26,066 nucleotides of DNA from the IMG/VR virus record IMGVR_UViG_3300011113_000375, positions 1 to 26,066 of that record, one strand, 5' to 3'. The notes beneath the pieces are model-generated. The model saw only the letters and a list, made by a program, of their open reading frames with translations. It made no database searches and was not told the DNA's origin. The translations under genes and the position numbers were made by a program. How positions within the stretch are numbered: the first letter of the stretch is position 1; each line of letters begins with the position of its first letter. This document shows, piece by piece, positions 1,120 through 22,910 of the stretch. The DNA is from a virus.

Positions 1120-1446
1120 ATGAAAATAGTAAAAAGATTGTCAGAAAGAGACATGTCTAGATTAGTTAGACGAGTTATTAAAGAAGATGAAATGGATTTG
1201 AGTCCTGTTAATAAACTTGGTGAAATTGAAGGTGTGTCAGAAATACAAGGTTGTGGAGGAGACAAGTTTGATGCCAACATGTGTTTATCAAATGCCATGG
1301 ATACTCTATCATTTAACAAATTTGTAAAAGAATTTTTTCCAGCATTTCAAGGAGTTGCTCAAGTAACTAAAACCGAAATACCAACCTCACAAATGGATCT
1401 TCCAACAATGGCAGAAGGAAGAGTCAGATATAGAGGAAGAAGATAA
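1120..1446 (+). CDS. Small protein with basic N-terminal virion-tag-like motif
   Basis: This is a 108-residue protein of unknown function. The N-terminus (KRLSERDMSRLVRRVIKEDE, residues 5-24) is a short basic amphipathic helix ending in acidic residues. It contains two (L/I)-x-E triplets (L7-S-E9 and I20-K-E22), the consensus cut by T4-type prohead proteases. I recall similar tags at the N-termini of phage head or virion proteins, and a related segment occurs inside the large protein encoded immediately downstream (residues 361-374). The rest has two Cys (GCGG, NMCLSNAMD) and an Arg-rich C-terminus. A role as a packaged or processed head protein is inference. The gene ends 24 nt before a strong rho-independent terminator, so it probably closes the transcript from the helicase side. 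Confidence 0.6.
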   Translation: MKIVKRLSERDMSRLVRRVIKEDEMDLSPVNKLGEIEGVSEIQGCGGDKFDANMCLSNAMDTLSFNKFVKEFFPAFQGVAQVTKTEIPTSQMDLPTMAEGRVRYRGRR

Positions 1447-1470
1447 TAGTATCATCGAATTAAATTTAAA

Positions 1471-1500
1471 AAACCCCATAATAAAAGTGGGGTTTTTATT
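1471..1500 (+). terminator. Rho-independent terminator after the small tag-bearing gene
   Basis: The arms AAACCCCAT (1471-1479) and GTGGGGTTT (1487-1495) form a stem with a 7-nt A-rich loop, followed by a T-rich tract (TTTTTATTTT). It lies 24 nt after the stop codon at 1446. Confidence 0.85.
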
Positions 1501-1508
1501 TTATAGAG

Positions 1509-1516
1509 TATTTATA
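1509..1516 (+). promoter_or_regulatory. TATTTATA octamer upstream of the 697-residue protein gene
   Basis: TATTTATA lies 4 nt before the ATG at 1521, in the same orientation as the gene and just after a terminator, so new initiation is needed here. The same octamer precedes four other genes in this window. Its function is not established; if it is a promoter element the transcript would be leaderless or nearly so. Confidence 0.4.
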
Positions 1517-1520
1517 GTCA

Positions 1521-3614
1521 ATGAATGTTAAAGTAAAACATATTAAATGTGATATGTCTGATGACGCAATTAAGTTGTCTAATGAATTTATCAAGTACTT
1601 ACAAAAACATTTCCCACTTAAAAATGATGTGGGCATTGTCTTTACCGGTGAAAGAATTGGTGAAATGTCAACAGGAAGTAGAAATTCAAAATCAGTTATT
1701 AAAGTTTTCACAAAAAAAAGAATTAATAGGGACATATTAAGGACATTAGCACATGAATGGATTCATGAATGGCAAATGACCACAAAAGGAAAAAAACCAA
1801 CTGGGGATATCGGAGGTCCAATTGAAGACGAAGCAAATGCCAAAGCGGGATCTATTTTAAAAATGTTTGAAAAAGATCACCCGATTAAAGAACCTTTAAT
1901 GTATGAATCTTTAACAAAAAAAATCAACATATTAAACGAACAGATTTTACTGACCGAAAAAATAAATATTCATGAAGAGTTCATAAATGAAATGACAAAA
2001 ATTGGTATTGAAAAATTACCGTACTCATATTCGGCAATCAAACAATTTGTTGATCCGGAAACTATGGATATTCATTATAACAAACATTATAAAACTTATG
2101 TTAAAAAACTTAATGACGCTCTTAAAAATAATAAAAGAAAATATGAAGATCTGGAGGAGATTATAAGATCTATAAGTTTATATGACACAAAAGTTAGAAA
2201 TAACGCCGGAGGTGCTTTTAATCATGCATTATTTTGGAAAATGCTGTCACCAACAAAACAATTACCAAAAAAGGAAATTTTAAATAAAATCAATCAGGAA
2301 TTTGGAAACATTAAAAAAATGAAAGACAAATTTAATGAGGTTGCTTTGGATCGTTTCGGTTCTGGGTGGGTATGGTTGGTTTTAACAAAAAGTAATAAAT
2401 TAAAAATCATGTCCACACCAAATCAGGATAACCCTTTGATGAATATTATAAAAGGTGGTGGGTATCCTTTATTAGGTTTGGATTTATGGGAACACGCATA
2501 TTATTTAAGATATAGAAACAAAAGAGATCAATATATTAAAAATTTTTGGAACAGTGTAAATTGGGAATTTGTCAACGACCTGTTTGTTTCCAAAACAAAA
2601 AAGAAATTAAACGAAACATATTTAAGAACATTACTTAAAGAAGATACTGAACAAGATTTAGATCTTAAAAACAGAATGAAACGGGAACTTCAAAAAATTA
2701 GATTAATTCCGTTAGACAGCGAAGCTGCTGTTGACGCAATTAACAATATTATAACAAGTTCTGTTGACCGAGGATATCTAAATTATGATAGAACTTTGAT
2801 GGGACTTATGTCATTAGATTTGAATAATGTTTCAGAAAGGTCTCGATATAGATTTAACAATTATTTTATTAGATGGGTAAAAAGTAAAACAAGAGGATAT
2901 GACTTTGAGGCTCTTATTACCGGACTACTTGGTGGTGAAATGGCAGCCTCATTAAATTCACCGTTTGATGTTATCTCAAAATTTGGAGACAAACTTTCCT
3001 GTAAAGTTGTTAGAAATACTAGTGAAAAAATATCCTTAAAAAGTGTTCGTAGGTCTGTGGAGTTGTTTATTAAAAACTATACTGGAAGTGATGAAAATAA
3101 GGCAATTCTTATGGATTTAGCCAAATATCCAAACTTTGTTGATTTAGTTTTAAGACATGAAAACCAAGACATTAAAAATATTGGTGAGGACTTATTGGGC
3201 AATCTTTTAAGTGAAATTACCGGAATGCTTGTTGGTGTTCCTAATCCATCAACTTATCAAATTGAATTATTTTATTTTGATAAAGACTCTCTTATTAACG
3301 CCGCCAAAATACCTGATATGTTAAAAACAGGAAAACAAAGCGGATCACAAACAATAACTTTTTCATCTAAAATATTAAAAATACAAGATGTAAATGTTGT
3401 TAAAGGGGCAATTCAGTTTCCTAATATATCACTTCAAGAATATAGTGACTTTTTAATTGGTGATGAAAACACACAAGAAATATTAAATTTATTTGACTTG
3501 TTTGGAAAAAAATATGGTGTAGACAACCTTGGATCAAATATACCACAAGACATTATTCGCGATTTATCCAAGAATCAAAGATTCAAGTTAGACTTGAAAA
3601 GGTTGTTAAAATAA
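1521..3614 (+). CDS. Multidomain protein: HExxH metallopeptidase-like domain, Mn-type superoxide dismutase, C-terminal nuclease-like domain
   Basis: This 697-residue protein has three clear parts. Residues 1-125 carry a zinc-peptidase signature, H78-E-W-I-H82, with a candidate third ligand in EDEAN (E102/E104), as in gluzincin/ImmA-like peptidases. Residues 160-355 are a full-length Fe/Mn superoxide dismutase. All four metal ligands are present: H185 (DIHYNKHY), H235 (AFNHALFW), D321 and H325 (DLWEHAYY). Y193 and the Mn-type residues Gly-Gly before H235 and Q302 (TPNQDNPLM) are also present. Residues 375-697 are unassigned, but E463 (DFEALITGLLGG), D483 and S493-C-K495 resemble a PD-(D/E)xK nuclease core with Ser in place of the second acidic residue. 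The linkers at 128-155 and 361-376 are rich in (L/I)-x-E triplets, suggesting proteolytic separation. A SOD inside a phage structural-gene block is unusual. The SOD call is firm; the peptidase call is probable and the nuclease call tentative. Confidence 0.88.
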   Translation: MNVKVKHIKCDMSDDAIKLSNEFIKYLQKHFPLKNDVGIVFTGERIGEMSTGSRNSKSVIKVFTKKRINRDILRTLAHEWIHEWQMTTKGKKPTGDIGGPIEDEANAKAGSILKMFEKDHPIKEPLMYESLTKKINILNEQILLTEKINIHEEFINEMTKIGIEKLPYSYSAIKQFVDPETMDIHYNKHYKTYVKKLNDALKNNKRKYEDLEEIIRSISLYDTKVRNNAGGAFNHALFWKMLSPTKQLPKKEILNKINQEFGNIKKMKDKFNEVALDRFGSGWVWLVLTKSNKLKIMSTPNQDNPLMNIIKGGGYPLLGLDLWEHAYYLRYRNKRDQYIKNFWNSVNWEFVNDLFVSKTKKKLNETYLRTLLKEDTEQDLDLKNRMKRELQKIRLIPLDSEAAVDAINNIITSSVDRGYLNYDRTLMGLMSLDLNNVSERSRYRFNNYFIRWVKSKTRGYDFEALITGLLGGEMAASLNSPFDVISKFGDKLSCKVVRNTSEKISLKSVRRSVELFIKNYTGSDENKAILMDLAKYPNFVDLVLRHENQDIKNIGEDLLGNLLSEITGMLVGVPNPSTYQIELFYFDKDSLINAAKIPDMLKTGKQSGSQTITFSSKILKIQDVNVVKGAIQFPNISLQEYSDFLIGDENTQEILNLFDLFGKKYGVDNLGSNIPQDIIRDLSKNQRFKLDLKRLLK

Positions 3615-3624
3615 GACAACGCGA

Positions 3625-3632
3625 TATTTATA
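3625..3632 (+). promoter_or_regulatory. TATTTATA octamer upstream of the neck protein gene
   Basis: TATTTATA lies 13 nt before the ATG at 3646, on the coding strand, in the short gap after the preceding stop codon. It is the same octamer as at four other gene starts. A promoter or translation-leader function is inferred only from position. Confidence 0.4.
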
Positions 3633-3645
3633 AAAAAAACATCTT

Positions 3646-4770
3646 ATGTCTATTATTAGTGAACCAGAAAGATCAAATCTTTATAAAAAAGTACGTCATG
3701 TACTTGGTGCTCCTTTAAGAAGTATCGAATTAGAAGATGAACAAATGGATACCCTTTTAGAATTTTCTATTGATGAGTATTCACAATACGTACAAGATTG
3801 GTTAATTGAGTCCCAGTGGACTGCACTTAACAATTTGGATTTAGACACACAATCACTAGCAAAGGCATTTACAACAAGAAGTTTAGATTATGAAACAAGA
3901 TATACGTATGCGTATTCAAAAATAGTTGGATTACAAGCCGGTGGAGACTGGGTACTAAAAAAAGATTATGTACAATTAGTTCCGAACCAACAAATTTACG
4001 AAATACCAGCACATAGAGAACTTAACGAAGTTTTATGGTTTACACCAGCAACTATGAATAATATGTTGTTTGACCCATGGGCTTTCGGTGGTATTGCTGG
4101 TGGAGGTATTTCAGGACCTGCAGGGTATGCACAAGTTGGTAACTTATCTGGTAGTTACTTTTTGATGCCAGCATTTGATATGTTACTTCGAATGCAAGAA
4201 ATTAACATTCAAAGAAGAATTATTGCGGGAGACTTAACTTATCGTGTTACAGCACTTCCTGGTGGTAAAAAAGCACTTCACTTGATGAATACACCTGGTG
4301 GTAAATTTGATTTTGGTAATTCAACACTTATGAAAGGTAAAGTATGGTATTGGTATTATGATACAGAGGGTTCAGACAGAGACAAATGTTTGGCTGACAA
4401 CCCCGACATTATTAAAATGCCTTCCGATGTTCCTTTTGATAAAATGAGTTGGGAAGACTTAAATAATCCGGCTCAGGTGTGGGTAAGAAGATGGTTTATT
4501 GCATATTGTAAAGAAACGTTATCCAGAGTAAGAGGTAAATTTAGTGGTAATTTAAAAGCACCAGATGGTGATTTGACAATGGATTACCAGTCATTAGCCA
4601 CCGAAGCAAAGGATGAAAAAACAAAACTCATAGATGAATTAATAGGTGCGGAAGGAAGGTTAACAAGGTTGAAGCCTGAAAAGGTTATGGAAAGAGAGGC
4701 GTTGTTGGCTGAAAACCTAAATAAACAGCTCAAGTTTAGAGCAATGCCTAGACAAATCTATGTAATATGA
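3646..4770 (+). CDS. Neck protein, T4 gp13-like
   Basis: This 374-residue protein has the layout of myovirus neck proteins. An N-terminal helical region (residues 1-95) includes the acidic IELEDEQMDTLLEFSIDEYS. A beta-rich middle contains LVPNQQIYEIPAHRELNEVL, and a C-terminal helical segment W279-VRRWFIAYCKETLSRVRGKF-S300 matches the recurrent pattern of an aromatic/basic helix ending in R-x-KF-S-G before a proline/aspartate-rich turn. T4 gp13 and gp14 complete the head and join it to the tail. The pattern match comes from memory of T4-like neck proteins, so the exact gp13 orthology is probable rather than certain. The stop codon overlaps the start of the next gene (ATGA), implying translational coupling. 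Confidence 0.65.
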   Translation: MSIISEPERSNLYKKVRHVLGAPLRSIELEDEQMDTLLEFSIDEYSQYVQDWLIESQWTALNNLDLDTQSLAKAFTTRSLDYETRYTYAYSKIVGLQAGGDWVLKKDYVQLVPNQQIYEIPAHRELNEVLWFTPATMNNMLFDPWAFGGIAGGGISGPAGYAQVGNLSGSYFLMPAFDMLLRMQEINIQRRIIAGDLTYRVTALPGGKKALHLMNTPGGKFDFGNSTLMKGKVWYWYYDTEGSDRDKCLADNPDIIKMPSDVPFDKMSWEDLNNPAQVWVRRWFIAYCKETLSRVRGKFSGNLKAPDGDLTMDYQSLATEAKDEKTKLIDELIGAEGRLTRLKPEKVMEREALLAENLNKQLKFRAMPRQIYVI

Positions 4771-5142: not shown

Positions 5143-7926
5143 TTATTTAACGTATTTTTTCATTTCGGGGTCGGCCAATTCATACATATGATAAGGGCTG
5201 ACCCCGACTTTTTTCCAGTAAATCATTTCTTCATTTGATATCTCCATAACATCTTCTAACTTGTCTTGATCGCCCTCATCAAATGGTTGTCCATTAATTA
5301 GTTCACATTGAACTTTTGTAAAGAATGGTCTTTCTTCTGGGTTCTTAACTAATAAAGCATTTCTCACCTCTTGTTTAAACACAACAAGTAATGGTTCTAC
5401 TCGTTTGTTAAAAGTTGTGATTGCCCGTTGAATATTGTACTGACCTTTCATAGTTGGGTTACTTTCAAGATCTAATGGATCAATACGGTAACAATTAAGT
5501 TGTATGATAGAGTCCAAGTTTTCAGGAATGGGTCCACCGTAAGTATTAATATGTTCTTCAGACCATCCTTTTTTTGGTTTATTAACTTTTTGAACATCAC
5601 CATGTGAAGCCTTACTACCGTTGTTTACATAAAAGATTACATCACCAAGATTTACATTAAGACCTTCATTAATTGCAAGTTCCATATGAGCTTGACGAGA
5701 CATTAAACTTCCTGCCTTTGTTGTTTGTTTACTACGTGTAATATAATCATCAATACTTTGTTTAACTTTTGCCTTGTTCGCAATATCAATTAAAGGAATG
5801 TCTTGATCAAATATTCTTTGTAAATATTCATAATACCACTCAACAAATTCTTGTCCCTTACCATCTAAAAGAAGTTTAATTGCTTTATCTAAAAATGTCT
5901 CAATATATTTTGGCATTTTCTTTGACTTGATTGAGTTTCCGGTAAGTTTGATTTTACCTTTAGCCGTGATAAGAGCGTAGTTTTTTCTAGCCAAGTTAAT
6001 ACACGCTGGCCATTGACCATCGGTATCAAGAGCCATTTCACCTCTCATTGACATATCATTAAACTCCATTACATCCGCTTCTTCACCAACATATTCTTTA
6101 CCCTCAACAACTTTCCAGTTTAAACCTTTACCGATATATTTTCGATCTTCCACATTTTCAGGGACCGAAAAGTTAATACCATCCGTATCCATTACAAGTG
6201 GTGTGTATCCACGATCCATAAAGAAGTTAATCATCATACGAAGATACTGACGACCTGTACAAGTAATCATTTCACCTTTGTCCATATCACCCCAATGAAA
6301 AACTTGTGGGGCAGATAACGCACCGAACATCGAGTTGATGAAGATTTTAATTGGTAATTGTTTACGGTCATAAGAAGTTGATTTCTTTTTATCTATCGAC
6401 GCATATTCCTCGGCAAGTTGTTTGTATTTAATACGAGTGTTACGGAAGTAAGATAATAAACCTTTCATTGCTCCTGTTACATCACAATCAGGAAAAACAT
6501 CATGAACTAACTGAATGGATGGGTATAGAGACGAGTAGTCAAGTTTTAATACGTTCTTGGAGTATCCGGTTCTAATAAGACGAGAAAGTCCTCCTACAAA
6601 GTTTCTTTTCTCACCTTTTTCAGGAATTGCCAATTTATGTTTATAAGACCAAGCCAACATCAACATTTTCCATAATGTTGCGGTACCCATTGTTGAAACT
6701 CTTTCGTATGTTGTGGGAAGAAGGGACGCCAACAAAAATGAACCTTGGTTGAATTCTTCGTCAACAAGTAGAGTTTCCTCAAGGTCATCGTCAAGATAAC
6801 GCTCAATAATGTCGTCCCCCTTTGTTTTAATGTAAACATTAGAATGTCTTTCACAAACATCATCAATCTTTGGATCTATACCTACTTTTTTGTACTTACC
6901 ATTTTCAATATTCAACCAATACTCTTCTTTATTTCTATACATAGATCCGATCTTGTCGTGATCAACGTACACCCGGTCAGGAGCCTCAAGTTCAAGATAT
7001 TTTGTTATATACTTCAAACCAGCTTCTTTGATGTTTGAATTAATTGCTTGTGCTCGTCGTACTGAATGTAAAATATCAATTATGTTATATCCCCACATTT
7101 GAGTTTGAGTAAACTTCTCCACCTCGTTTGCAAGTTTTAACATTGATTCTTTTTGTGAAATTGTTTTTTCACGGTGTAGTGATGTTGCAACTCTTTTAAT
7201 ATCAAGATTTAAGATTTTACATCTTTCATAAATCCAGTACCAGTCAAAGTTGAATGAGTTATACCCTGAAATAATTGATGGTTTGATTTCATCTATTACT
7301 CTAAAAAATTCAGTTATACCTCGTCTTTCTTCATCTTCGTTTGTACACTCGATAACTTTTTGAAACCCTTTATTTGTTTTAAGACCGATCATGAAAATTC
7401 TACCATCTTTGGGTTCTAAAGATGTGGTCTCAAGGTCAAATACAAGTCTTGTAATGTCATTGTATTCTTCAAATCCTTTGAATAATCTTTTTTCTTTCGA
7501 GATGAGGTATTGTTCAACTGGGGGTAACATAAGAATTTTTTCTTTAAGTTTTTCTCCCCACGGGTCAAGTCCACCATCTCTGAAAAATTGTGTAAGAGCC
7601 CTATAACCCTTTAATGACTTAACCATGAATGTCAAACCATTTTCTAACCTTTCGTTGTTATCGGTTCTTAATTTTTCAATCATGATACCATATTTTGTCA
7701 TGGCCTCTTTTTGTAATGCTTTAGAACCAGAATAAAAATTCAGACCACGTAGGTCACCCACCCACGCAAATGCAATTAAACTGTCTCTTTGGATTTGTTT
7801 TCCCTTACCTGGTACTTCTTTGATTTTGTAAATGTGGTCGGATTGATAGTCAAATTCTACCGACACAATATATTCTTCAGGGTCGTTTCCCTGTAGGAAA
7901 CTTTCAATTTCTTCTTGTGATATCAT
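5143..7926 (-). CDS. Family-B DNA polymerase, T4 gp43-like replicative enzyme
   Basis: This 927-residue protein is close in length to T4 gp43 and has all diagnostic motifs in order. The 3'-5' exonuclease has Exo I D164-L-E166, Exo II N223-SFNF-D228 and Exo III Y377-LDD-D381. The polymerase has motif A D463-YSSLYPS, motif B K527-IFINSMFG with N531 and G535, and motif C MDTDGINF, where D580 and D582 are the catalytic pair (the usual YGDTDS varies here). A KKMPKY motif follows. Both active sites look intact, so this should be the proofreading replicative polymerase. It stands alone on the minus strand between plus-strand genes and has its own promoter and leader hairpin. No insertion, intein or split was seen. 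Confidence 0.97.
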   Translation of the reverse strand: MISQEEIESFLQGNDPEEYIVSVEFDYQSDHIYKIKEVPGKGKQIQRDSLIAFAWVGDLRGLNFYSGSKALQKEAMTKYGIMIEKLRTDNNERLENGLTFMVKSLKGYRALTQFFRDGGLDPWGEKLKEKILMLPPVEQYLISKEKRLFKGFEEYNDITRLVFDLETTSLEPKDGRIFMIGLKTNKGFQKVIECTNEDEERRGITEFFRVIDEIKPSIISGYNSFNFDWYWIYERCKILNLDIKRVATSLHREKTISQKESMLKLANEVEKFTQTQMWGYNIIDILHSVRRAQAINSNIKEAGLKYITKYLELEAPDRVYVDHDKIGSMYRNKEEYWLNIENGKYKKVGIDPKIDDVCERHSNVYIKTKGDDIIERYLDDDLEETLLVDEEFNQGSFLLASLLPTTYERVSTMGTATLWKMLMLAWSYKHKLAIPEKGEKRNFVGGLSRLIRTGYSKNVLKLDYSSLYPSIQLVHDVFPDCDVTGAMKGLLSYFRNTRIKYKQLAEEYASIDKKKSTSYDRKQLPIKIFINSMFGALSAPQVFHWGDMDKGEMITCTGRQYLRMMINFFMDRGYTPLVMDTDGINFSVPENVEDRKYIGKGLNWKVVEGKEYVGEEADVMEFNDMSMRGEMALDTDGQWPACINLARKNYALITAKGKIKLTGNSIKSKKMPKYIETFLDKAIKLLLDGKGQEFVEWYYEYLQRIFDQDIPLIDIANKAKVKQSIDDYITRSKQTTKAGSLMSRQAHMELAINEGLNVNLGDVIFYVNNGSKASHGDVQKVNKPKKGWSEEHINTYGGPIPENLDSIIQLNCYRIDPLDLESNPTMKGQYNIQRAITTFNKRVEPLLVVFKQEVRNALLVKNPEERPFFTKVQCELINGQPFDEGDQDKLEDVMEISNEEMIYWKKVGVSPYHMYELADPEMKKYVK

Positions 7927-9860: not shown

Positions 9861-12125
9861 TTACGCAACTACGTTACCAGCAAATTGTACAGAAGAACCA
9901 AGTTTTGGTGCTGTTACAAAATCGATTCGAACTGTATTTGGATTTGCGGCAATATTAGTGACTAAAGTATAATCATCACCGGCTTTTTGTAGTAGACCAT
10001 TCAAGTATACAAATTCAGTATTTACCACTAAAACACTGCTTAGTGGGAACTGTTTATTTGTTCCATCAACAGATCCTGTAGTTCCTACTTTTCCAAAATC
10101 AGATGCATTGATTGCTGAGATTTCAGCCGCTAATGATGCGTCGGCAGTAGATCTAGCAACTTCTTCAGTAGACACTCTTGATGTTAATGATGTATCGGCA
10201 GATGATCTTGTAGATTCTTCAGTAGCAATTCTAGACGACAATGACAACTCTGCAGATCCTAAAGCAGTATTCAAAGATGCGTCACCAGATACTCTTGAAG
10301 ATGCTTCAGTTGAAATTTCAGTAGATAATGATGATGCTAAAGATGCGTCACCAGAAACTCTTGAAGATGCTTCAGTTGAAATTTCAGTAGATAATGATGA
10401 TGCTAAAGATGCGTCACCAGATGTTCTTGAAGATGCTTCAGTTGAAATTTGACTAGACAAAGATGTTGCTAAAGATGCGTCGGCAGAAGTTCTTGTAGAT
10501 TCTTCAGTTGATACTCTTGTAGTTAAAGATGTATCGGCAGATGCTCTGTTAGATTCTTCTTGAGACAATCTTGTTGCTAAAGACGCATCGGCAGAAGCGT
10601 TGTTAGAGATTGTTACTACGATAGATGCGTCAGCAGATGCTCTTACAGATTCTTCAGTAGATACTCTTGTAGTTAAAGATGCATCACCTGCGATTCTTGC
10701 AGATTCTTCAGCAGATACTTCAGCGTCTAAATAGTTAACGATAGATGTATCGGCAGATGCTCTGTTAGCTTCTTCAGTTGATACTCTTGTAGTTAAAGAT
10801 GCATCACCTGCGATTCTTGCAGATTCTTCAGCAGATACTTCAGCGTCTAAATAGTTAACGATAGATGTGTCAGCAGATGCTCTGTTAGCTTCTTCAGTTG
10901 ATACTCTTGTAGTTAAAGATGCGTCTCCTGCGATTCTTGCTGATTCTTCAGCAGATACTTCAGCATCTAAATAGTTAACGATAGATGTATCGGCAGATGC
11001 TCTGTTAGATTCTTCTTGAGACAATCTTGTTGCTAAAGACGCATCGGCAGAAGCGTTGTTAGAGATTGTTACTACGATAGATGCGTCAGCAGATGCTCTT
11101 ACAGATTCTTCAGTAGATACTCTTGTAGTTAAAGATGCATCACCTGCGATTCTTGCAGATTCTTCAGCAGATACTTCAGCGTCTAAATAGTTAACGATAG
11201 ATGTATCGGCAGATGCTCTGTTAGCTTCTTCAGTTGATACTCTTGTAGTTAAAGATGCATCACCTGCGATTCTTGCAGATTCTTCAGCAGATACTTCAGC
11301 GTCTAAATAGTTAACGATAGATGTGTCAGCAGATGCTCTGTTAGCTTCTTCAGTTGATACTCTTGTAGTTAAAGATGCGTCTCCTGCGATTCTTGCTGAT
11401 TCTTCAGCAGATACTTCAGCATCTAAATAGTTAACGATAGATGTATCGGCAGATGCTCTGTTAGATTCTTCTTGAGACAATCTTGTTGCTAAAGACGCAT
11501 CGGCAGAAGCGTTGTTAGAGATTGTTGCTACGATAGATGCGTCAGCAGATGCTCTTACAGATTCTTCAGTTGATACTCTTGTAGTCAAAGATCCGTCTCC
11601 TGCGATTCTTGCAGATTCTTCAGTAGATAATCTTGTAGTCAAAGATGAATCAGCAGCAGTTCTTGTAGATTCTTCGTTTGATACTCTTGTGTTGATCGAT
11701 CCTTCAGCAGTAGACAATGAAGTAGATGCTGCTGCCGCAACAGATGCGTCACCTGAAACTCTTGCAGATGCTTCAGTAGAAACTGCGTTTGATCTGTCAA
11801 CGATTTCTGTTGATAAGTTAGATGCGATAGAACCTTCAGCAGATGTTGCTCTTAATACTTCTGCGTCCAAATCACTCTCTAAAGATGCGTCACCTGAAAC
11901 TCTTGCAGATGCTTCAGTAGAAACTGCGTTTGATCTGTCAACGATTTCTGTTGATAGGTCACTAGCTAATTCACCTAAAGCTAGGTCAACATTTGTAATT
12001 GACGGTGGAAACGAAGTGCCGGTAAACGCAATGTTTCCAGCGTTAATACCCGATGGATTGTAAATTTGTGGACTATTAAGTAATAAGTCCGATTGCAAGT
12101 CCAATACTATTTTAGTATTTGCCAT
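9861..12125 (-). CDS. Long repetitive tail-fibre shaft protein with C-terminal beta domain
   Basis: This 754-residue protein has a short unique N-terminus (residues 1-50) and then about 625 residues of Ser/Ala/Asp/Glu/Thr-rich repeats of the form STEES-x-R-x-x-x-DASL-x-x-R-x. The composition and spacing fit an extended trimeric coiled-coil or triple-beta fibre shaft. Within it a 40-residue unit (RASADTSIVN YLDAEV ... STEEAN) is nested in a 152-residue super-repeat. Residues 676-754 form a compact C-terminal domain (GSVDGTNKQF, EFVYLNGLLQKAGDDYT, APKLGSSVQFAG). The same domain occurs twice in the 243-residue protein encoded upstream in the same direction. A long tail fibre role is inferred. 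The repeat copies are nearly identical at DNA level, so fibre length may vary between isolates. Confidence 0.82.
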   Translation of the reverse strand: MANTKIVLDLQSDLLLNSPQIYNPSGINAGNIAFTGTSFPPSITNVDLALGELASDLSTEIVDRSNAVSTEASARVSGDASLESDLDAEVLRATSAEGSIASNLSTEIVDRSNAVSTEASARVSGDASVAAAASTSLSTAEGSINTRVSNEESTRTAADSSLTTRLSTEESARIAGDGSLTTRVSTEESVRASADASIVATISNNASADASLATRLSQEESNRASADTSIVNYLDAEVSAEESARIAGDASLTTRVSTEEANRASADTSIVNYLDAEVSAEESARIAGDASLTTRVSTEEANRASADTSIVNYLDAEVSAEESARIAGDASLTTRVSTEESVRASADASIVVTISNNASADASLATRLSQEESNRASADTSIVNYLDAEVSAEESARIAGDASLTTRVSTEEANRASADTSIVNYLDAEVSAEESARIAGDASLTTRVSTEEANRASADTSIVNYLDAEVSAEESARIAGDASLTTRVSTEESVRASADASIVVTISNNASADASLATRLSQEESNRASADTSLTTRVSTEESTRTSADASLATSLSSQISTEASSRTSGDASLASSLSTEISTEASSRVSGDASLASSLSTEISTEASSRVSGDASLNTALGSAELSLSSRIATEESTRSSADTSLTSRVSTEEVARSTADASLAAEISAINASDFGKVGTTGSVDGTNKQFPLSSVLVVNTEFVYLNGLLQKAGDDYTLVTNIAANPNTVRIDFVTAPKLGSSVQFAGNVVA
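10531..11540 (-). repeat. Nested tandem repeat: 456-bp super-repeat containing 120-bp units
   Basis: Two nearly identical 456-bp copies (10531-10986 and 10987-11442) and a partial third (11443 to about 11540) lie in frame inside the fibre gene (456 = 3 x 152). Each holds three 120-bp units (40 residues) plus a 96-bp variant unit. The third 120-bp unit of each copy carries the same silent differences (for example gcgtctcctgcg against gcatcacctgcg), so whole 456-bp blocks were duplicated recently. Confidence 0.9.
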
Positions 12126-14718: not shown

Positions 14719-16326
14719 TTATCCACATAACCACAGGTCAACTTGCGCGTTTGTTGAAACCCATGTTCTGTATACTTTATAAATATGGCTATTTCCAAAA
14801 ATGTCAACGATAGTTACATCAGGTTTGTTGATTATAGGAACGACAAATCCATTACATCCACTAACACTATTTCTAAACTGAATTGGTTGATTCATTGAAG
14901 ATGGAATCAAAATAAACACGTAACCAGGACCGGCATTTACATCTAAATAAATGTTAACAGAATCAACAGATTGAATGGTTTGAAGTAGTGTTTCATCTCC
15001 TGGATCAAATTCACTAGAAGTTAGTTTACCAAAATATAATGTTGGTGTAACAGGTGCGGAAGGTGATGGGGTTGGTGTAGGTGTTGATGTTGGTGTAGGA
15101 GTTGGTGTAGGTGTTGATGTTGGTGTAGGGGTTGGAGTTTCTGTAGGTGTGGTAGTTGGTGTTGGTGTAGGAGTTGCAGTTGTAGTTGCGGTAGGTGTCG
15201 GTGTAGGAGTTGCAGTTGTAGTTGCGGTAGGAGTAGGGGTAGGTGTTGGTGTTTGTGTTGCAGTAACACTTGGTGTTGGTGTTTGAGTAGGTGTTGGTGT
15301 TGGTGATGAACCTGGAGATGCGGTAGGAGTAGGTGTTGGTGTATTTGTTGGAGTAACTGAAGGTGTTACCGTAGGAGTTGGCGTGTTTGTTGGAGTTACT
15401 GTGGGTGTAGGAGTTGGAGTAGGGGTTGTTGTTGATGTAGGAGTTGGAGTAGGGGTTGTTGTTGATGTAGGAGTTGGTGTTGGTGTAGAAGTAGGAGTTG
15501 GAGTTGGTGTAGGTGTTACATCAATTATTATTTGTTCATTAACTATTGTCCCGGTTGGAATACCAGTAGTTTGTAAATTAGAATAATAAATGTTTGATGT
15601 TATACTTGAAAAAGGATAATCTATTATTGTTTCTGTAGATCCGGTTGTAGAACCTGGTGCAACCGTAATTGATTCTGGAATTTGAATTGTGCCCCCAGAA
15701 AAATCTTCGACGTTTATTGTAAATTCAACAGTACTTTCATTTGGTAATGAATAGTTGTAAGATATGTTTGATTGTAGAATTATAGACCCAGAAGTAATTA
15801 CGGTTATTAAAGTTGCGGAGAATGGAGATAAAGTAGTTGTTGTAGTTGTTATAGGTGGTACATAACAAATTGTTGTTGTTGTGGTTGTAACCGGACCAAC
15901 TGGTTTTGTATTACAACAAGGATATTCAACAACATAACAATTATTATCATAAGTCAAATCATCACAAACAAAACTTTCTTGTATGTTAATAAATAATCTA
16001 TCTCTAATAGGAAGAATTAAAGTACCTTCATAATTTACAATAATAAACTGACCTTCATATCTTCCAGGTTTTTTTGTTTCAAAATTCGAAAATTGATAAA
16101 ATATATAATATTCAGGTTCCGCATTAGGATCCATGAAAGTTTTATTAACTAATCCTGCGGGTTTGTTTTGAATTTTTGGAATTCCAGTTTCAATATCAAC
16201 CATAGAGAAGAATATTGATGATTCTTCCAAAAGTTGCATGAATTTATTATAATCACTTCGTCCATCCTTAACAACTTGCATTTTAAGCAACGGAAGCGTC
16301 GCGTTCTTTTTGATATAAAATTCCAT
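14719..16326 (-). CDS. Virion surface protein with long Thr/Pro-rich mucin-like tract
   Basis: This 535-residue protein has an N-terminal folded region (residues 1-140: [39 protein letters not shown]) consistent with a tail-associated beta domain. It then has CC-containing and hexathreonine segments ([18 protein letters not shown]), an Ig-like region (about 168-265), a 160-residue Thr-Pro/Ser-Pro tract (about 268-428) and a C-terminal domain with [12 protein letters not shown]. The tract would be extended and surface exposed. Thr/Pro-rich stretches of this kind are acceptors for O-linked sugars in mucin-like proteins. The next two genes upstream encode sugar transferases (an HtrL/GT-A fusion and a GT60-like GlcNAc transferase). 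TATTTATA and an AAAAAGGA-like site precede the start. Confidence 0.68.
15043..15522 (-). repeat. Low-complexity Thr/Pro-coding repeat tract
   Basis: About 480 nt of short GGTGTT/GGAGTA-type repeats (plus-strand reading) encode 160 residues of mostly Thr-Pro and Ser-Pro. Codons vary between copies, so it is not one pure microsatellite, but it is likely to be unstable by slippage. The apparent Val/Gly-rich plus-strand reading frame here is a shadow of it. Confidence 0.88.
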
Positions 16327-16353: not shown

Positions 16354-18018
16354 TTAACATTCTTTTCTTAAATCCGCATCGTAAAAATCAAATCTATTGT
16401 GTTCAGTCGGAGTTAAAAGTAATAAACCTGGTTTTAAATTACCCTTAATCATTTCTTGAAAATTATACGACATTAAAGTTTGTTCGTATGGAAAATCAAA
16501 TTTTTGTTTGATATAACATTTGTAATTACCTTCTTTAGACATGAGTATTGGCCAATTAGAAAGGTATATTTCACCAGAAACATATGGAACTCCATCTAAA
16601 GATTTTATATGTTTAAACTCAATACAGGGTGCGTTTGGGTCATAACCAAAAGAAGGTAATTTATTTTTTTCAGGCCAATGTTTTTCTCTAAATGATTGTG
16701 GAACATTATACCAAGCCCATTGTGTTTGATGTGAACCAAAAAATTCTGTAAAGTTTAATTTAAGAAAATCAAAATTTTCTTTTTCCATAATTTTTATTGT
16801 TTTATCAAATAAGTTTTTTACATATCTGTTAAAACCATTCTTACAGACCAAATCTTTGGAATAAGTAAAAATCATGTCATCTTCAAAAAAATAATAATAA
16901 CTCAAACTATCTTCATTATTAAAGTGCTCGGCAATAAATTGTCTACCTCCGGTTATACCTATATTATCTTTTTTAATATGTTCAAAATCATACAGTTTAC
17001 ATAAGACTTCATATTCTTTTGTGGTAGAAAGATCTGTAGAATTATTAAGTAGATATTTTTTAGTTTTACTTAAAAAATTAATATCATAATCAATCATGGA
17101 ATTTATTAATGACTCAAATTGTTTTGGAGAATTAAATGTAATAACGTATAAACCAACATCACCTCCTCCATTAAAATTAACTTCTTTATTTTTAGAATAT
17201 ATTTTTGTGGTTGAGTTTTTAAGACTATCAAAATACCGATACATTAAACCATCAGATTCTATTAAAGAATAATTAATCAATTCTGGATATTGATATAAAA
17301 GAATTGTAAACAAAGATTCTTCCGTCCCCATCAAACCATAACCCAATGTATTAATTAAAATATTATAATATAATGTGTTCATAGTTGTTATTGACTCCTT
17401 ATCACCACCAAAAAAACCACCTCTTGTAACCATGTCGGGTTTACTGTTTGTCATTTGACACATTTTATCAAAAGAAAATCCATGAACCTCGGTATGTGCC
17501 TCATAAGGAAAACAAACAAAATAAAATTTATTGTTTTGTGTTTTTATGTTTTGTAGAACTTTATCTTCAGTAAAATAACCTTTATGTACTGTATTTGTTA
17601 AACCAGCATCAATCCAAAATAATGAATTAGAATTAAACTTATCTAAAATTTTGGCGTCATGTAATAAAAACATTTTTGACATCACCAACGGGTTATAATA
17701 CTCTAATTTGGCTTGTGTAGATTCTTTTAACCACCCCACCTGATTATACCAATCAGGATTTGTTCTTACTTTTTGTATTAGGTTAAAATATTCATTATTT
17801 GTGAACCAACTCAAATCTTTTTCTATAAACTGTGTATTACTTTCATTTCGTATTTTAAAAACAAATTCTTTTAACTTATGATCTCCAAATATGATCATAT
17901 TATTTTCTACCTCTAATAGTTCAGAAAATTTCGACAAGTAGTAGTCAAAATTTCTTGACCAACCTTCTTGAAGGTTAGATCTACCTATATCCCATAAACC
18001 AGTTACTAATGTTATCAT
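16354..18018 (-). CDS. Bifunctional glycosyltransferase: HtrL/YibB-like domain fused to a GT-A domain
   Basis: Residues 1-265 match the HtrL/YibB (WlaTC-like) family: an N-terminal ITLVTGLWDIGRS, a conserved W-x-x-x-F-x-Y-Y start of the first helix, MIIFGD, and the active-site-like LFWIDAG (133-139), followed by FYFVCFPYEAHTE. The family is linked to LPS outer-core or capsular sugar transfer. Residues 289-554 start a second nucleotide-sugar fold (GLYVITFNSPKQFESLI) with a DxD-like E379-D-D-M382, an acidic metal-binding motif of GT-A enzymes, and a C-terminal Trp/His-rich region. The fusion suggests two successive transfers. The gene begins 113 nt downstream of the GT60-like gene and precedes the Thr/Pro-rich protein gene. 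Confidence 0.78.
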   Translation of the reverse strand: MITLVTGLWDIGRSNLQEGWSRNFDYYLSKFSELLEVENNMIIFGDHKLKEFVFKIRNESNTQFIEKDLSWFTNNEYFNLIQKVRTNPDWYNQVGWLKESTQAKLEYYNPLVMSKMFLLHDAKILDKFNSNSLFWIDAGLTNTVHKGYFTEDKVLQNIKTQNNKFYFVCFPYEAHTEVHGFSFDKMCQMTNSKPDMVTRGGFFGGDKESITTMNTLYYNILINTLGYGLMGTEESLFTILLYQYPELINYSLIESDGLMYRYFDSLKNSTTKIYSKNKEVNFNGGGDVGLYVITFNSPKQFESLINSMIDYDINFLSKTKKYLLNNSTDLSTTKEYEVLCKLYDFEHIKKDNIGITGGRQFIAEHFNNEDSLSYYYFFEDDMIFTYSKDLVCKNGFNRYVKNLFDKTIKIMEKENFDFLKLNFTEFFGSHQTQWAWYNVPQSFREKHWPEKNKLPSFGYDPNAPCIEFKHIKSLDGVPYVSGEIYLSNWPILMSKEGNYKCYIKQKFDFPYEQTLMSYNFQEMIKGNLKPGLLLLTPTEHNRFDFYDADLRKEC

Positions 18019-18083
18019 TATTTTAATATTTCTAAATTTTGAAATGGTTTGAAAAAAAATTTGTTATGTAAAAATTTTTATCT

Positions 18084-18107
18084 CCAGTTTTAATATTTCT
18101 AAACTGG
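18084..18107 (-). other. Hairpin in the gap between two glycosyltransferase genes
   Basis: CCAGTTT and AAACTGG pair as a 7-bp stem with a 10-nt loop in the 112-nt gap (18019-18130). On the minus strand it is followed within 6 nt by AAAAATTTTT, so it could be a weak terminator after the GT60-like gene. Part of the loop and arm (ttttaatatttctaaa) is repeated at 18021-18036 just before the start of the next gene, so a spaced leader repeat is an alternative. Confidence 0.4.
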
Positions 18108-18130
18108 TGTCTTATTACCAATTCCATATA

Positions 18131-19375
18131 TTATAACTGTCCTGTAATTCTATCGCACCAACCTTTTGATTTACTGTAAGGCCAAACAACCCAGTAAGTT
18201 GGTTTAATGTTTGTTATGAATTGTCTCCATATTTTACAATACCCGTCAGGGTCTGATTTCATATTTCTGATTTCAGATTCGGTTGCGTCTTGTCTAAAAA
18301 TTGTTTCATCTTTCGAATTGTGAAATGCTACAACCCAAAACTCATAATCATCTTCAGGTACTAATTTATGTGTTATATCAATACAGTGTTTAAATATTGT
18401 TGAAAAACTATTTTTCCAATCTTCCTCATTTTCAAAATCATAAGGATTTGGTGGGTATTGTTTGTCTATTGTATATTGTTGAACCGATCTATTTTCAAAT
18501 CTAATTCCAGCATATTTTTCGTAGTCTTGAACCGTTCTTTCTTTACCGAATCCATATTTTAAATCACCATCAAATTTTTCACCATCAACCCCAAGTATTC
18601 TTCTGTTTTTAGAATGTGATGAAATATTTTTTGTGTACCAGGTTGAATCATCGTCCCACTGTTTAGTTCTACCTTTTCTTGTATATTCATGCCAGATCAA
18701 AACTTTATGTGGGTGAAAAAGATCATAACCATGTGTAAACGCTCTAACAGCAATTGAAATTTCTTCACCATGGAAATAGTATTCTGGATCATGTTGAACC
18801 TCAACAGAAAACTCCCCTAATGTAAAACAAAAATGGGCGGAATAAAATCTTGATCTAATTGGTCCATTTAAATCTTTCCACCCTGGTATTACTTCCGGTA
18901 AAAAAAATACAACACCCTCTGGTGTAAATCTGTCGAACGCCATTCTCCATGGTTCGTTAACTCTACCTTCAGGATAAGTTTCTGGGTCAAATGAAGAAAC
19001 ATAACCGGTTAAAAGAGGTTTTGGGTGACCCTGTTTTTGTAGGTCTACTAACATATTAATAAACTCTTCATCCCAGTTTTTTTCAAATCTCATGTGAGAA
19101 TCAATTTGAAGTGTATATGTTTCTCCACTATAAAGTTGTTGTACTTGGTTTCTTGCCCAACAAACACCTGTGGATTCTGTGTATAAAATATCTAATATTC
19201 TAAATCTACTATCATTTCTATAGTCTTCTAAATTATCAAAATTGTCTTCTGGATGATATTGTCTTGCAATACCAAATCTTAAATTTTCTGGGTACTTTGC
19301 AGTTTTTAAAATACTTTTGATGGTGGGAATAAGTTGTGGATCCCGATATGATGCGATTTGAATAAATATTGTCAT
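18131..19375 (-). CDS. GT60-like polypeptide GlcNAc transferase
   Basis: This 414-residue protein matches the GlcNAc-transferase family that includes Dictyostelium Skp1 Gnt1 and trypanosome mucin-type O-GlcNAc transferases (CAZy GT60). It has an N-terminal IQIASYRDPQLIPTI, an ENLRFGIARQ segment, GVCWARNQVQQLYSGE, and the metal-binding QIDSHMRFEKNWDEE (I91-D-S-H-M-R-F97). A later HGEEISIAVRAFTHGYDLF block follows. Enzymes of this family add GlcNAc to Thr or hydroxyproline in proteins, so a phage or host protein acceptor is plausible. It starts 16 nt after the small virion gene, at the foot of a hairpin covering its usual ribosome-binding region. The family call is strong; the acceptor is unknown. 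Confidence 0.88.
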   Translation of the reverse strand: MTIFIQIASYRDPQLIPTIKSILKTAKYPENLRFGIARQYHPEDNFDNLEDYRNDSRFRILDILYTESTGVCWARNQVQQLYSGETYTLQIDSHMRFEKNWDEEFINMLVDLQKQGHPKPLLTGYVSSFDPETYPEGRVNEPWRMAFDRFTPEGVVFFLPEVIPGWKDLNGPIRSRFYSAHFCFTLGEFSVEVQHDPEYYFHGEEISIAVRAFTHGYDLFHPHKVLIWHEYTRKGRTKQWDDDSTWYTKNISSHSKNRRILGVDGEKFDGDLKYGFGKERTVQDYEKYAGIRFENRSVQQYTIDKQYPPNPYDFENEEDWKNSFSTIFKHCIDITHKLVPEDDYEFWVVAFHNSKDETIFRQDATESEIRNMKSDPDGYCKIWRQFITNIKPTYWVVWPYSKSKGWCDRITGQL

Positions 19376-19376
19376 A

Positions 19377-19396
19377 GTTAGTTAAAAATAACTAAC
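19377..19396 (-). promoter_or_regulatory. Hairpin abutting the GT60-like start codon
   Basis: GTTAGTTA and TAACTAAC form a perfect 8-bp stem with a 4-nt loop. On the coding strand it ends one base before the ATG at 19375 and includes the stop codon of the upstream 73-residue gene. The place where a ribosome-binding site should be is thus inside the stem, suggesting translation control or coupling to upstream translation. Confidence 0.55.
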
Positions 19397-19613
19397 ATTC
19401 GTAATAATTAAATATTTCACAATTGTTAGAGTCGATAAGTTTTATTAATAAAGAATCGACGTTATTTAACGGATATACAGGTTCGAACGTAAAAGATGGG
19501 GGTATTGTAGTACCACCAGAGACTAAAAAACAGTAAGTATTTGTTACATCACATACATATACATCATATGGTGATGTACCCGAAACACCTGATATTGTGA
19601 TTTGATGTGGCAT
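19392..19613 (-). CDS. Small virion-like protein
   Basis: This 73-residue protein has four Cys (YVCDVTNTYC, NNCEIFNYYEC) and a short beta-rich pattern (ITISGVSGTSPYDVYVCD, then SFTFEPVYPLNNVDSLLIK). I recall similar paired small proteins in marine and flavobacterial phages, but cannot name a family with confidence. It starts 2 nt after the 74-residue gene stops, so the two are translated in tandem. The disulfide-like Cys pattern and position between fibre genes suggest a small structural or decoration protein; this is inference. Confidence 0.6.
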   Translation of the reverse strand: MPHQITISGVSGTSPYDVYVCDVTNTYCFLVSGGTTIPPSFTFEPVYPLNNVDSLLIKLIDSNNCEIFNYYEC

Positions 19614-19615
19614 AA

Positions 19616-19840
19616 TTATCTTGGTACGTGTAAAACATTAGGACAATCTGGGGAGTCAACCGGTAAAATTGTGTAGTAACCAAAAGGTTCTTGTGGTGGA
19701 TACAACATACCGGGTTCAAATAAAAAAGGAATTGTAATAACACCAAGGTTTATAACTATATCTGTTGTGTCAGGATAAAATAAAACATTTGCATCTTGAC
19801 CATTATAATTATTACTTTCTATTAAAATCGATTGACTCAT
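19616..19840 (-). CDS. Small virion-like protein, partner of the 73-residue protein
   Basis: This 74-residue protein is beta-rich: SILIESNNYNGQDANVLFYP, then INLGVITIPFLFEPG, and a C-terminal YGxYxIL-like segment (FGYYTILPVDSPDCPN). It resembles small tail-surface proteins of large phages, but no function is known. It directly follows the nucleotidyltransferase gene and precedes the 73-residue protein by 2 nt. TATTTATA and an AAAAGGT site lie upstream, giving the best Shine-Dalgarno-like leader in this part of the operon. Confidence 0.6.
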   Translation of the reverse strand: MSQSILIESNNYNGQDANVLFYPDTTDIVINLGVITIPFLFEPGMLYPPQEPFGYYTILPVDSPDCPNVLHVPR

Positions 19841-19846
19841 TACCTT

Positions 19847-20326
19847 TTACATATAAATATGATTTGAAGTGGATTGTGAGATAATTTTTAAAACGTCTTC
19901 ATGTAAAATTGGATCTATCGAGTTTTTCCAGGAATCATTTTGAATTGCTAAGCAATTTCTAACACCTTTAACAGAAATAGTAGAAATTGTGGTTGGTGAA
20001 ATATGTTCTTTTATTTCTATGTCGTCGGTGTATCTAAAATTGAAAGATTCAATATCTGGTATTATTTGAACTACAACATCATCACCTTTTTCGTTATGAT
20101 ATTTTTCAATCATTTTTTTTACAGTTTCGGAACCAAAAGGTGTTGAATTTGAAATCTCTACATCTTTAACCAAAATTAACACTGGAACTCCATCGGATAA
20201 CAACCTGTTTACCATTGCAATGTGACCAAGATGATAAGGTTGGAATGTACCAACGATCATCGCTCTTTTATTTTTTTCATAGTTTCTTTTAAAACCTCCG
20301 TGAAATTTAGAATCCCAGTTTTCCAT
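19847..20326 (-). CDS. Nucleotidyltransferase (HxGH, cytidylyl/adenylyltransferase-like)
   Basis: This 159-residue protein has the Rossmann-like nucleotidyltransferase signature GTFQPYHLGH (residues 26-35), whose HxGH (H32 and H35) binds the nucleotide triphosphate. It also has an ILVKDVEISNSTPFGSETVKKM segment that fits a loop of this family. The usual C-terminal ISxTxIR is changed to something like ISTISVKGVRN, so its exact chemistry is uncertain. Likely reactions are NMN adenylyltransfer or CMP/AMP activation of a sugar or polyol phosphate. In this operon, activation of a sugar donor for the neighbouring transferases is the more attractive option, but NAD synthesis cannot be excluded. Its ATG shares one base with the stop of the upstream GT9-like gene (TAATG-type overlap). 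Confidence 0.8.
   Translation of the reverse strand: MENWDSKFHGGFKRNYEKNKRAMIVGTFQPYHLGHIAMVNRLLSDGVPVLILVKDVEISNSTPFGSETVKKMIEKYHNEKGDDVVVQIIPDIESFNFRYTDDIEIKEHISPTTISTISVKGVRNCLAIQNDSWKNSIDPILHEDVLKIISQSTSNHIYM
19852..19859 (-). promoter_or_regulatory. TATTTATA octamer upstream of the 74-residue protein gene
   Basis: On the coding strand TATTTATA lies 11 nt before the ATG at 19840 and inside the 3' end of the nucleotidyltransferase gene. This internal position could give extra expression of the two small virion-like proteins. Confidence 0.4.
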
Positions 20327-21216
20327 TATTTTAAAATTTTAGTCATGTCAAAAATATTTGTGTCTAACATAGGACACTCGTGTGTAACTCCATTAAAGTT
20401 GTAATCAAAAAGATAACTGTCTGGTAATCTAAAGTTTTCTGGTAATTTAGCAACTATATTTTCATGTAGTTTATAACCAAACAACTCTGGTGAAGTACCA
20501 ACCCAAAGTACTGTTGAAGGTAAATTCATGGCGGCTGCGGCATGTTGCAAACATGAATCAATTAAAATTCTTTTTTGAGCGTAGGCCAAAAGTGAAAACA
20601 ACTCCATGTTTGGCATCGGACCAAAATGAGCCTCAACATTTTGTAAAACGTTAGATTGATCTCGACATATTTGAATTATGTGATACTTTGTTGAAAAATG
20701 ATTTACTATGTTTTGAGCAACGTCAAATGGTATGTCCCTAGTCCAAGAGTATGTGTACTGTTGTTCTTGAAGTGGTCCTCCATTTGTTTGTAAAACCATT
20801 ACGGGTTTATCTCTAAACCATTTACCGTGTGCAATTTGTTGTTGTCTAACATTATAAACTAATTGTGGTTGCTCGTTATTATACTTCAAATCATACAATT
20901 TACACCAGTTCAAAAGTAAATGAAGTTTTTTATTTATGTGATCTGAAGTAAAATAAGGTTCATGTTTAAAAATAAGACTGTCTTTATCTTTTATATAATC
21001 GTCATAAAAATAAGGTGTTAAACCAATTCTATAAACCCTACTAACAAAATTTAAATTTATAAAAATTTCAGGATAACCACAAACAATAATTAATTCTCTG
21101 TCTGGGTGGTTATTTTTAATACATTGTGCAACCGCAGTTGCCAATACATGTTTTCCTAAACCACCTTCAATGTGGAATATAGAATATTTTTTTTCTTTTT
21201 GTTTTTCCATTTTCAT
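20326..21216 (-). CDS. GT9/heptosyltransferase-like glycosyltransferase
   Basis: This protein has a GT-B two-domain layout. The N-terminal SIFHIEGGLGKHVLATAVAQ is the glycine loop of ADP-heptose:LPS heptosyltransferase-like enzymes. A C-terminal ILIDSCLQHAAAAMNLPSTVLWVGTSPELFGY corresponds to the donor-binding segment with D-S-x-x-x-H-x-A-A. The reading frame runs back to an ATG at 21252, but that would overlap the upstream gene by 23 nt. The ATG at 21216 follows an A-rich leader like those of the other operon genes, so I chose it; a further ATG lies at 21210. It may transfer a heptose or similar sugar, extending or starting the glycan made with the TibC-like enzyme upstream. Confidence 0.78.
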   Translation of the reverse strand: MKMEKQKEKKYSIFHIEGGLGKHVLATAVAQCIKNNHPDRELIIVCGYPEIFINLNFVSRVYRIGLTPYFYDDYIKDKDSLIFKHEPYFTSDHINKKLHLLLNWCKLYDLKYNNEQPQLVYNVRQQQIAHGKWFRDKPVMVLQTNGGPLQEQQYTYSWTRDIPFDVAQNIVNHFSTKYHIIQICRDQSNVLQNVEAHFGPMPNMELFSLLAYAQKRILIDSCLQHAAAAMNLPSTVLWVGTSPELFGYKLHENIVAKLPENFRLPDSYLFDYNFNGVTHECPMLDTNIFDMTKILK

Positions 21217-21229
21217 AATTATATTTTTT

Positions 21230-22135: not shown

Positions 22136-22910
22136 TTTTTAATTTTATATTAAATTTATTTTCAACTTCAACCACATCGTAATATTTACAAGGTCGGCCA
22201 GGCATCAAAGCTTTTTTTCCATATTCCCAAGAATTAAAATAATCCACCAAAAAAGAAATTTCAGACTCAAAATTTTTCTTGGCCGATGAATTGTTTAATT
22301 TTTTAAATATATTATTTCTCACATAACTTAAATGGTGCATTTCTATTTCTTCTCTAGTAAATATTTTACAATTACCAGGTTCCATTTTTCTAGTTGGGTC
22401 AACAATCACAGGAAACTTATTTTTACCAAATAATACATTTTTTCTTATTTTATATATCAATGGCACATAATATGTTTCCTTGGGCTCAATTCTATATATT
22501 GGTTTATTATAGTACGTAATCATTTGACAAACTGACGAATCATAATCACCATCAGTCACAATTTTTTTCATATTTCTAAACTCGTCAATATTATAGTATT
22601 CGTCAGTGTCAATTGACATATGATGGGTACATCCATTTTTAATTGAAAGTTCTAAACCTATGTTTCTTTTTTTTAATTCATTTGTACTACCTACGATATC
22701 TGTTGGCGTATACTTGTAAGTTTCATCAATAAGACCAGAAGATTTTAAATCTTCAAGTAACAAAATTAAATTTTCATCACAACTATGTCCAAAATTAGAA
22801 ACAGTTTGATAGACAACACTTATGTAATCCACCTCACCACGTATTTGTTTTATTGACCCTTCTAATAGTTCTTCACCATCAAAAACATTGTAACTTAAAC
22901 CTAATTTCAT
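22128..22910 (-). CDS. GT-A glycosyltransferase (GT2/GT92-like)
   Basis: This 260-residue protein has a GT-A layout: a start like GLSYNVFDGEELLEGSIKQI, a TNELKKRNIGLELSIKNGC helix and the metal-binding D101-T-D103 in HHMSIDTDEYYN. A later acceptor-side EMHHLSYVR segment follows. DxD motifs bind the metal and nucleotide sugar in GT-A enzymes. The family looks like GT2 or GT92-type transferases of bacterial glycan clusters; the sugar is not predictable. It overlaps the upstream GT8 gene by 4 nt (ATGA) and the downstream TibC-like gene by 8 nt, so all three should be translated together. Confidence 0.8.
   Translation of the reverse strand: MKLGLSYNVFDGEELLEGSIKQIRGEVDYISVVYQTVSNFGHSCDENLILLLEDLKSSGLIDETYKYTPTDIVGSTNELKKRNIGLELSIKNGCTHHMSIDTDEYYNIDEFRNMKKIVTDGDYDSSVCQMITYYNKPIYRIEPKETYYVPLIYKIRKNVLFGKNKFPVIVDPTRKMEPGNCKIFTREEIEMHHLSYVRNNIFKKLNNSSAKKNFESEISFLVDYFNSWEYGKKALMPGRPCKYYDVVEVENKFNIKLKNG

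Follow-up and report, generated by a model that had tools for sequence, protein, structure and literature searches.

The internal head proteins of phage T4 (IPI-III and Alt) bear short N-terminal capsid-targeting propeptides, constitute a non-core cargo that varies between related phages and are injected, and the prohead protease gp21 cuts after L/I-X-E (PMC9026906). Polyvalent proteins, described by Iyer et al. in 2017 (PMC5512222), are multidomain, frequently include a zincin, are encoded in a late-gene context by virion genes and are inferred to be injected; the word "superoxide" is absent from that paper, which is not known to describe units bordered by [L/I]-x-E. Superoxide dismutases (SODs) are known from freshwater phages (PMC6802176) and from PA5oct-like Pseudomonas phages, and a SOD is listed among the packaged proteins of the giant virus Megavirus chilensis in a review (PMC9405923), but the latter is an unrelated Cu,Zn enzyme of a eukaryotic virus. 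Finally, the MuF polymorphic toxins of temperate phages are phage-encoded proteins that combine a constant N-terminal part with a variable C-terminal part.

We analyzed a 26,066-nucleotide (nt) stretch of viral DNA (IMG/VR record IMGVR_UViG_3300011113_000375, here called the window), in which a single gene joins a peptidase-like domain, a SOD, and a nuclease-like tail. This protein appears to share with the T4 internal proteins the [L/I]-x-E cut rule, short propeptide-like segments and a variable non-core cargo, and gp21 and gp23 homologues occur in its relatives; whereas T4 encodes one cargo protein per gene, several folded units with internal tag-like linkers lie here in one precursor, and one of them is a SOD. 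With the polyvalent proteins it has in common disparate enzymatic domains in one polypeptide and, judged from synteny, a late-gene context. In contrast, the Fe/Mn-type SOD of the PA5oct group stands alone, is about 25% identical, and was not seen fused to a peptidase or a nuclease-like tail, and the MuF toxins have other constant domains, while the tail here is apparently flanked by protease sites. A literature search for a phage SOD polyprotein found none, an absence that is weak evidence. Since phage SODs are already known, it is the peptidase-SOD-tail arrangement, and not the SOD itself, that is new; a first, sequence-only reading of the locus was aware of no precedent for it. The features of the locus are as follows.

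1120-1446 (+): small protein with the N-terminal tag MKIVKRLSERDMSRLVRRVIKE (1120-1185), which is common to the N termini of many related-phage proteins; candidate capsid-targeted internal protein
1469-1497 (+): terminator-like hairpin 5' of the SOD-protein gene; not above chance (count of 1 versus 1.6 in shuffles)
1509-1515 (+): TATTTAT element, 5 nt 5' of the ATG; candidate late promoter or leader signal
1521-3614 (+): putative peptidase-SOD-nuclease-like polyprotein of 697 amino acids (aa), from the open reading frame (ORF), Pfam and PDB matches and homologues
1521-1904 (+): N-terminal zincin-like metallopeptidase domain, aa 1-128, with H78-E-W-I-H82 at 1752-1766 and the third-ligand candidate E104 at 1830-1832
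1905-1991 (+): linker 1, aa 129-157, rich in [L/I]-x-E; the last, I155-N-E157 (1983-1991), stands directly before Met158
1992-2588 (+): Mn-type SOD domain, aa 158-356, with ligands H185 (2073), H235 (2223), D321 (2481), and H325 (2493), from Pfam, PDB, and conservation
2589-2654 (+): linker 2, aa 357-378, with LNE (2607-2615) and LKE (2634-2642); absent from tail-less homologues
2643-3611 (+): exchangeable tail of type C0, aa 375-697, predicted restriction-endonuclease fold, with E463 (2907), D483 (2967), and S493-C-K495 (2997-3005)
3646-4770 (+): neck or head-tail adaptor protein (phrog_211), conserved 3' neighbor from PHROG match and synteny, with TATTTAT 14 nt before its start

A peptidase-SOD gene beside the neck gene

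The ORF starts with ATG and contains zero internal stops. Also encoded in the window are the end of a helicase, two small proteins, the neck protein, a protein of 123 aa, and, on the opposite strand, a family-B DNA polymerase. On the minus strand, a run of glycosyltransferase-like genes (16354-23650) and a GTFQPYHLGH-containing nucleotidyltransferase-like protein (19847-20326) were recognized by eye, and proteins with ESARIAGDASL-type repeats, TPTPTP-rich stretches, and GGGxxNTAS-type repeats (9861-12125, 14719-16326, and 23733-25757) are perhaps fiber related.

IMG/VR scans with the peptidase part yielded 4 and then 324 relatives, of which the best 80 were used, and a scan with the SOD part yielded at least 544, again with the best 80 used. 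After removal of duplicates, this first survey comprised 94 distinct complete proteins carrying both peptidase and SOD, and the full-length homologues included L001 (91% identical) and L002 (58%). These 94 one-frame proteins rule out a sequencing fusion of separate genes, one of the two explanations that the sequence-only reading had set against itself; separate versions of some parts do occur elsewhere. The family represents an uncultured, mostly lake-water lineage of T4-like phages. A cultured close relative of the lineage, and with it a virion proteome, was looked for and not found; in this search, the nearest neck homologue, that of Microcystis phage Mel-JY01, was 23% identical. The order helicase, SOD protein, neck was kept in almost every locus of sufficient length. 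When the search was started from the neck gene, a SOD lay upstream of it in 74 of 80 loci, the remaining six having other ORFs there, and seven of the ORFs at neck loci consisted of SOD and tail without the peptidase but with the linkers retained. The adjacent helicase gene has an apparent intein at its Walker A site (after GLGK, ending VTHNTTS) in L001 (2189-5134) and L002 (2583-5489), which is absent from L003 and L004.

The TATTTAT element was found within 40 nt upstream of 63 of 71 distinct SOD genes, mostly 4 to 7 nt before the ATG, where the background is 0.02 per 40 nt. The same element stands before the neck gene, a gp21-like protease gene, and many genes for tagged proteins; genes with TATTTAT more often have at least two [L/I]-x-E motifs among residues 1 to 30 than other genes do (odds ratio, 3.7; P = 2e-8). 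The element is a candidate late promoter or leader signal of the lineage, and, read as its reverse complement, it matches most of TATAAATA, the late promoter of T4. In the window, TATTTAT occurs shortly before the start codons at 681, 1521, 3646, 8042, and 16326 (the last on the minus strand); in related genomes, it is enriched ahead of virion and tag-protein genes.

The SOD domain proposed from the bare sequence, a full Mn-type enzyme in mid-protein with all four metal ligands, was borne out, and the agreement is well beyond chance. Pfam identified Sod_Fe_N at aa 164 to 243 (E = 6e-22; 78 bits versus a gathering score of 27) and Sod_Fe_C at aa 249 to 353 (E = 4e-39; 133 bits versus 20.9), and the top PDB match was the Mn-SOD 5a9g (E = 1.5e-61). 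H185, H235, D321, and H325 are invariant in 99/99 aligned homologues, as are the second-shell residues H189, Y193, Q302, W283, W323, E324, and Y328; Q302, in NQDNPLM, is the glutamine of the Mn type. Between the window and L001, dN/dS was lowest in the SOD (0.018), followed by the peptidase (0.036) and the tail (0.047). The invariant catalytic residues, together with a dN/dS of about 0.02, rule out a degenerate SOD, the other objection raised beforehand. We infer from these comparisons that the unit is of Mn type, retains an intact active site, and would be enzymatically active.

The HExxH peptidase-like domain predicted in front of the SOD was likewise recovered, with H78, E79, H82, and E104 invariant in 100/100 homologues. 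It gave weak matches to named families (DUF6055 most frequently, SprT-like, M76, M78, and M91; best E, 7e-5). Relatives of this domain were also encountered elsewhere. In cyanophage S-SRM01 (MW015081.1; L185, about 5932-6330), a stand-alone homologue lies between a pyrophosphatase and a cytidyltransferase gene. Another lies at the end of a contig from a Flavobacteriales metagenome-assembled genome with chromosomal genes (L225, 1-234); because this relative comes without a SOD, the lead to Flavobacteriales only hints at the host phylum.

[L/I]-x-E motifs at the joints

The joints between the units are the principal result of the analysis. The motif in front of the SOD is positioned with precision. 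It abuts Met158 in 98/98 alignable homologues, where position 155 is only Leu or Ile and position 157 only Glu, while residue 156 is free (I, N, L, M, T, V, or A, giving INE, LLE, IAE, ITE, LVE, and others). Behind the SOD, an [L/I]-x-E falls within 35 aa in 63/63 tailed proteins versus 0/35 tail-less ones, and the latter stop just where linker 2 would start. The density of the motif was 0.074 in linker 1 and 0.053 in linker 2 versus 0.0086 in the rest of the same proteins, a value exceeded by the median of 0.015 for all genes of two related genomes. Counts reached 336 versus 194 ± 12 in shuffles for linker 1 and 114 versus 41 ± 5 for linker 2, bearing in mind that the motif is short and also fits amphipathic helices and that the homologues counted are kin rather than independent samples. 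Windows of 40 aa with at least three motifs made up 2.7% of those in the two related genomes, versus 83/98 for linker 1. Because the joints resemble prohead-protease cut sites, the protein is probably packed into the head, cut, and delivered into the host at infection.

The most credible alternative, which we nevertheless regard as unlikely, is an ordinary auxiliary metabolic gene, whose uncut three-domain product would shield the infected cell from reactive oxygen species (ROS), the linkers being flexible joints. Freshwater-phage SOD genes have been read as ROS defense (PMC6802176), PA5oct-like phages have stand-alone SODs, and linker composition alone yields 194 of the 336 motifs, all of which agree with an uncut protein. 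However, composition does not sit easily with a motif fixed before Met158 in every alignable homologue around a free middle residue or with a second linker that comes and goes with the tail, and the near-universal adjacency to the neck gene and a 5' element common to virion genes also speak against an uncut metabolic enzyme.

It is still less probable that the peptidase domain cuts its own precursor, whether inside the head or once injected, as has been proposed for the metallopeptidases of polyvalent proteins. The zincin is the commonest domain of these injected proteins, for which autoproteolysis is suggested (PMC5512222), and the complete homologues of the first survey carry a peptidase domain. 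Yet the seven SOD-tail ORFs without peptidase keep their linkers, including an [L/I]-x-E or a variant of it before the SOD, and the motif is that of gp21 and not of any known zincin.

The exchangeable tail

What follows the SOD varies across the family: at least four unrelated tail domains occur, as does a small additional module, D3, and some proteins have no tail at all. Among the complete proteins of the first survey, 28 had type C0, 13 had C1, 8 had C2, and 9 had D3 with or without C1, while 35 were tail-less; another type, C3, was seen in loci reached through the neck gene. About 60% of the family has a tail and about a third lacks one. L003 and L004 illustrate the exchange: the 7 kb leading to linker 2 are 98.8% identical, the tails are unrelated, and identity resumes, at 97.8%, with the neck gene. 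When tail types were mapped onto the tree built from the constant part, at least 20 changes were counted versus a minimum of 5. By these comparisons, peptidase and SOD are the constant part and the tail is a swappable cassette. A toxin arrangement, in which the variable tail would act against competitors and peptidase and SOD would serve as its delivery part, shares with the MuF toxins a constant N-terminal part with a swapped C-terminal part and so has a phage precedent (PMC12226406), but it is the least probable explanation, as a MuF or other delivery domain is absent, a catalytically intact SOD would be an odd delivery part, so many family members are tail-less, and no immunity gene was noticed beside it.

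The AlphaFold2 model of C0 (pLDDT, 85) has its best structural matches in 3ndh (Z, 8.9), Eco15I (8.2), and NhoI (7.9), followed by HinP1I, MspI, PvuII, and EcoRV; nearly all top rows are restriction enzymes or Hjc, with a Foldseek E value of just 1e-3. We take 3ndh, a restriction endonuclease with DNA, to be ThaI. In the model, E463 lies in a helix, D483 beside a strand, and S493-C-K495 in a strand, which is the PD-(D/E)XK order. The E463, D483, and S493-x-K495 features singled out in the sequence-only reading were exact and are invariant in 27/27 C0-type proteins. The catalytic set acidic-D-(D/E/Q/N)-x-K is incomplete, as all 27 have S493-C-K495, and serine is not a usual substitute for the (D/E) of (D/E)xK. 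Eco15I and NhoI have QxK where (D/E)xK is expected (PMC11347163). By the model, the C0 tail has a restriction-endonuclease fold, which agrees with its description as nuclease-like; because Ser replaces (D/E), we do not class it as an active PD-(D/E)XK nuclease, and its role may be DNA binding or that of an atypical nuclease.

The C1 model (pLDDT, 70) shows a weak likeness to I-Ssp6803I, SPARDA, and Hjc (Z, 5 to 6.5) and keeps D..QVK; in alignments alone, C2 retains D..ExK and C3 has D..QIK or QVK. Pfam on C0, C1, C2, and C3 and PHROGs on single representatives gave no usable match, nor did PHROG for one representative of D3. A match of the C0 profile to a small tag protein was weak, left the active-site region uncovered, and was set aside.

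Several parts also occur unfused. C3 is fused to the SOD in some phages and is a separate gene at the same slot in others, with a VLSE-type [L/I]-x-E aligned at the boundary in most; the likeness of linker 1 to the propeptides of separate C3 proteins was just marginally above shuffles. C1 is likewise found as a separate gene at this slot, with [L/I]-x-E in its leader. D3 stands alone beside the SOD gene, beginning MKIIITE followed by S, and in other phages is a tail unit behind INE followed by S. Given these natural splits, we argue that the parts work separately. D3 is a domain of roughly 100 aa (KWLNKEFGDLTP...WLEETYNLRG) that was observed both in tandem genes beside the SOD gene and as a tail unit (L058, L060, L065, L067, L119, and G001 3560-3886).

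Tag proteins and the proposed head-cargo role

Neither gp21 nor gp23 was seen in the 26-kb window fragment; both are known from relatives. Among nine relative contigs, most of them fragments, the gp21 protease (PF03420; E = 1e-23) was present in four and gp23 (E = 1e-64) in five. The gp23 of the relatives has five [L/I]-x-E motifs in residues 1 to 60 and six in the other 569, the first segment ending LINE60 directly before ATSE. The related contigs G001 (304 kb) and G002 (291 kb) encode many proteins with an N-terminal MKKVIRLTESDLTRIVRRVIKE-like tag. In 34 of 35 tag proteins found by the first half of the tag, the tag ends in [L/I]-x-E, at or close to a common position, and in the remaining one it ends in VxE; tag-like units lie inside a multiunit protein directly 3' of gp23. 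A second tag style, MKKFIITEEEKxRILGMHK, was observed besides the LTESDL tag at the N termini of several G001 and G002 proteins. In the SOD precursor, a tag before the N-terminal unit is absent, which weighs against a head-cargo role.

At a probability of about two in three, we consider the protein to be a late-expressed head cargo polyprotein that is cut by the prohead protease and injected. The architecture, its conservation, the swapping of cassettes, the placement of the motifs, the free-standing parts, and the gp21 and gp23 homologues in relatives are directly supported by sequence; from them we infer packaging, cleavage, injection, activities, and targets. The precursor would consist of a zinc-peptidase-like unit, a Mn-SOD unit and, often, a swappable tail, usually with nuclease-like features, and its linkers would act like the T4 capsid-targeting propeptides to bring it into the prohead. 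There, a gp21-type protease would cut after [L/I]-x-E, releasing the tail as a protein of its own and a SOD that starts at Met158. The parts would be enclosed together with the DNA and pass with it into the next host cell, where the SOD would clear superoxide in the vulnerable first minutes of infection and the peptidase and tail would act on host or competitor targets. The likely benefit would also include the removal of superoxide in the capsid during sunlit transit. Such a role would be of the kind envisaged in the sequence-only reading, in which a packaged SOD could guard phage DNA or the newly infected cell against oxidative damage. The three-part description given at the outset is thereby kept as regards a SOD between peptidase-like and nuclease-like domains, but the protein is probably a precursor polyprotein and not one three-domain enzyme, and the packaging in the head considered at that time is now the best-supported reading.

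More tentatively, and at somewhat short of an even chance, the whole lineage may use such modular cargo. In each genome, many proteins would be destined for the head by a tag ending in [L/I]-x-E, and precursors would be strung together from modules (peptidase, SOD, D3, and several nuclease-like folds) that phages exchange like beads; an active SOD would then be an injected anti-ROS factor, possibly directed against an oxidative host response, alongside nucleases.

To our knowledge, this would be the first case in which processing signals have led to the proposal of a phage SOD as cargo packed in the head. By the head-cargo reading, capsid targeting of the T4 type would have come to include entire polyproteins, and the [L/I]-x-E-ended tag would provide a sequence rule by which the proteins that this large uncultured lineage of phages probably injects could be catalogued. 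It also makes testable whether phages carry their own antioxidant defense into the cell at infection.
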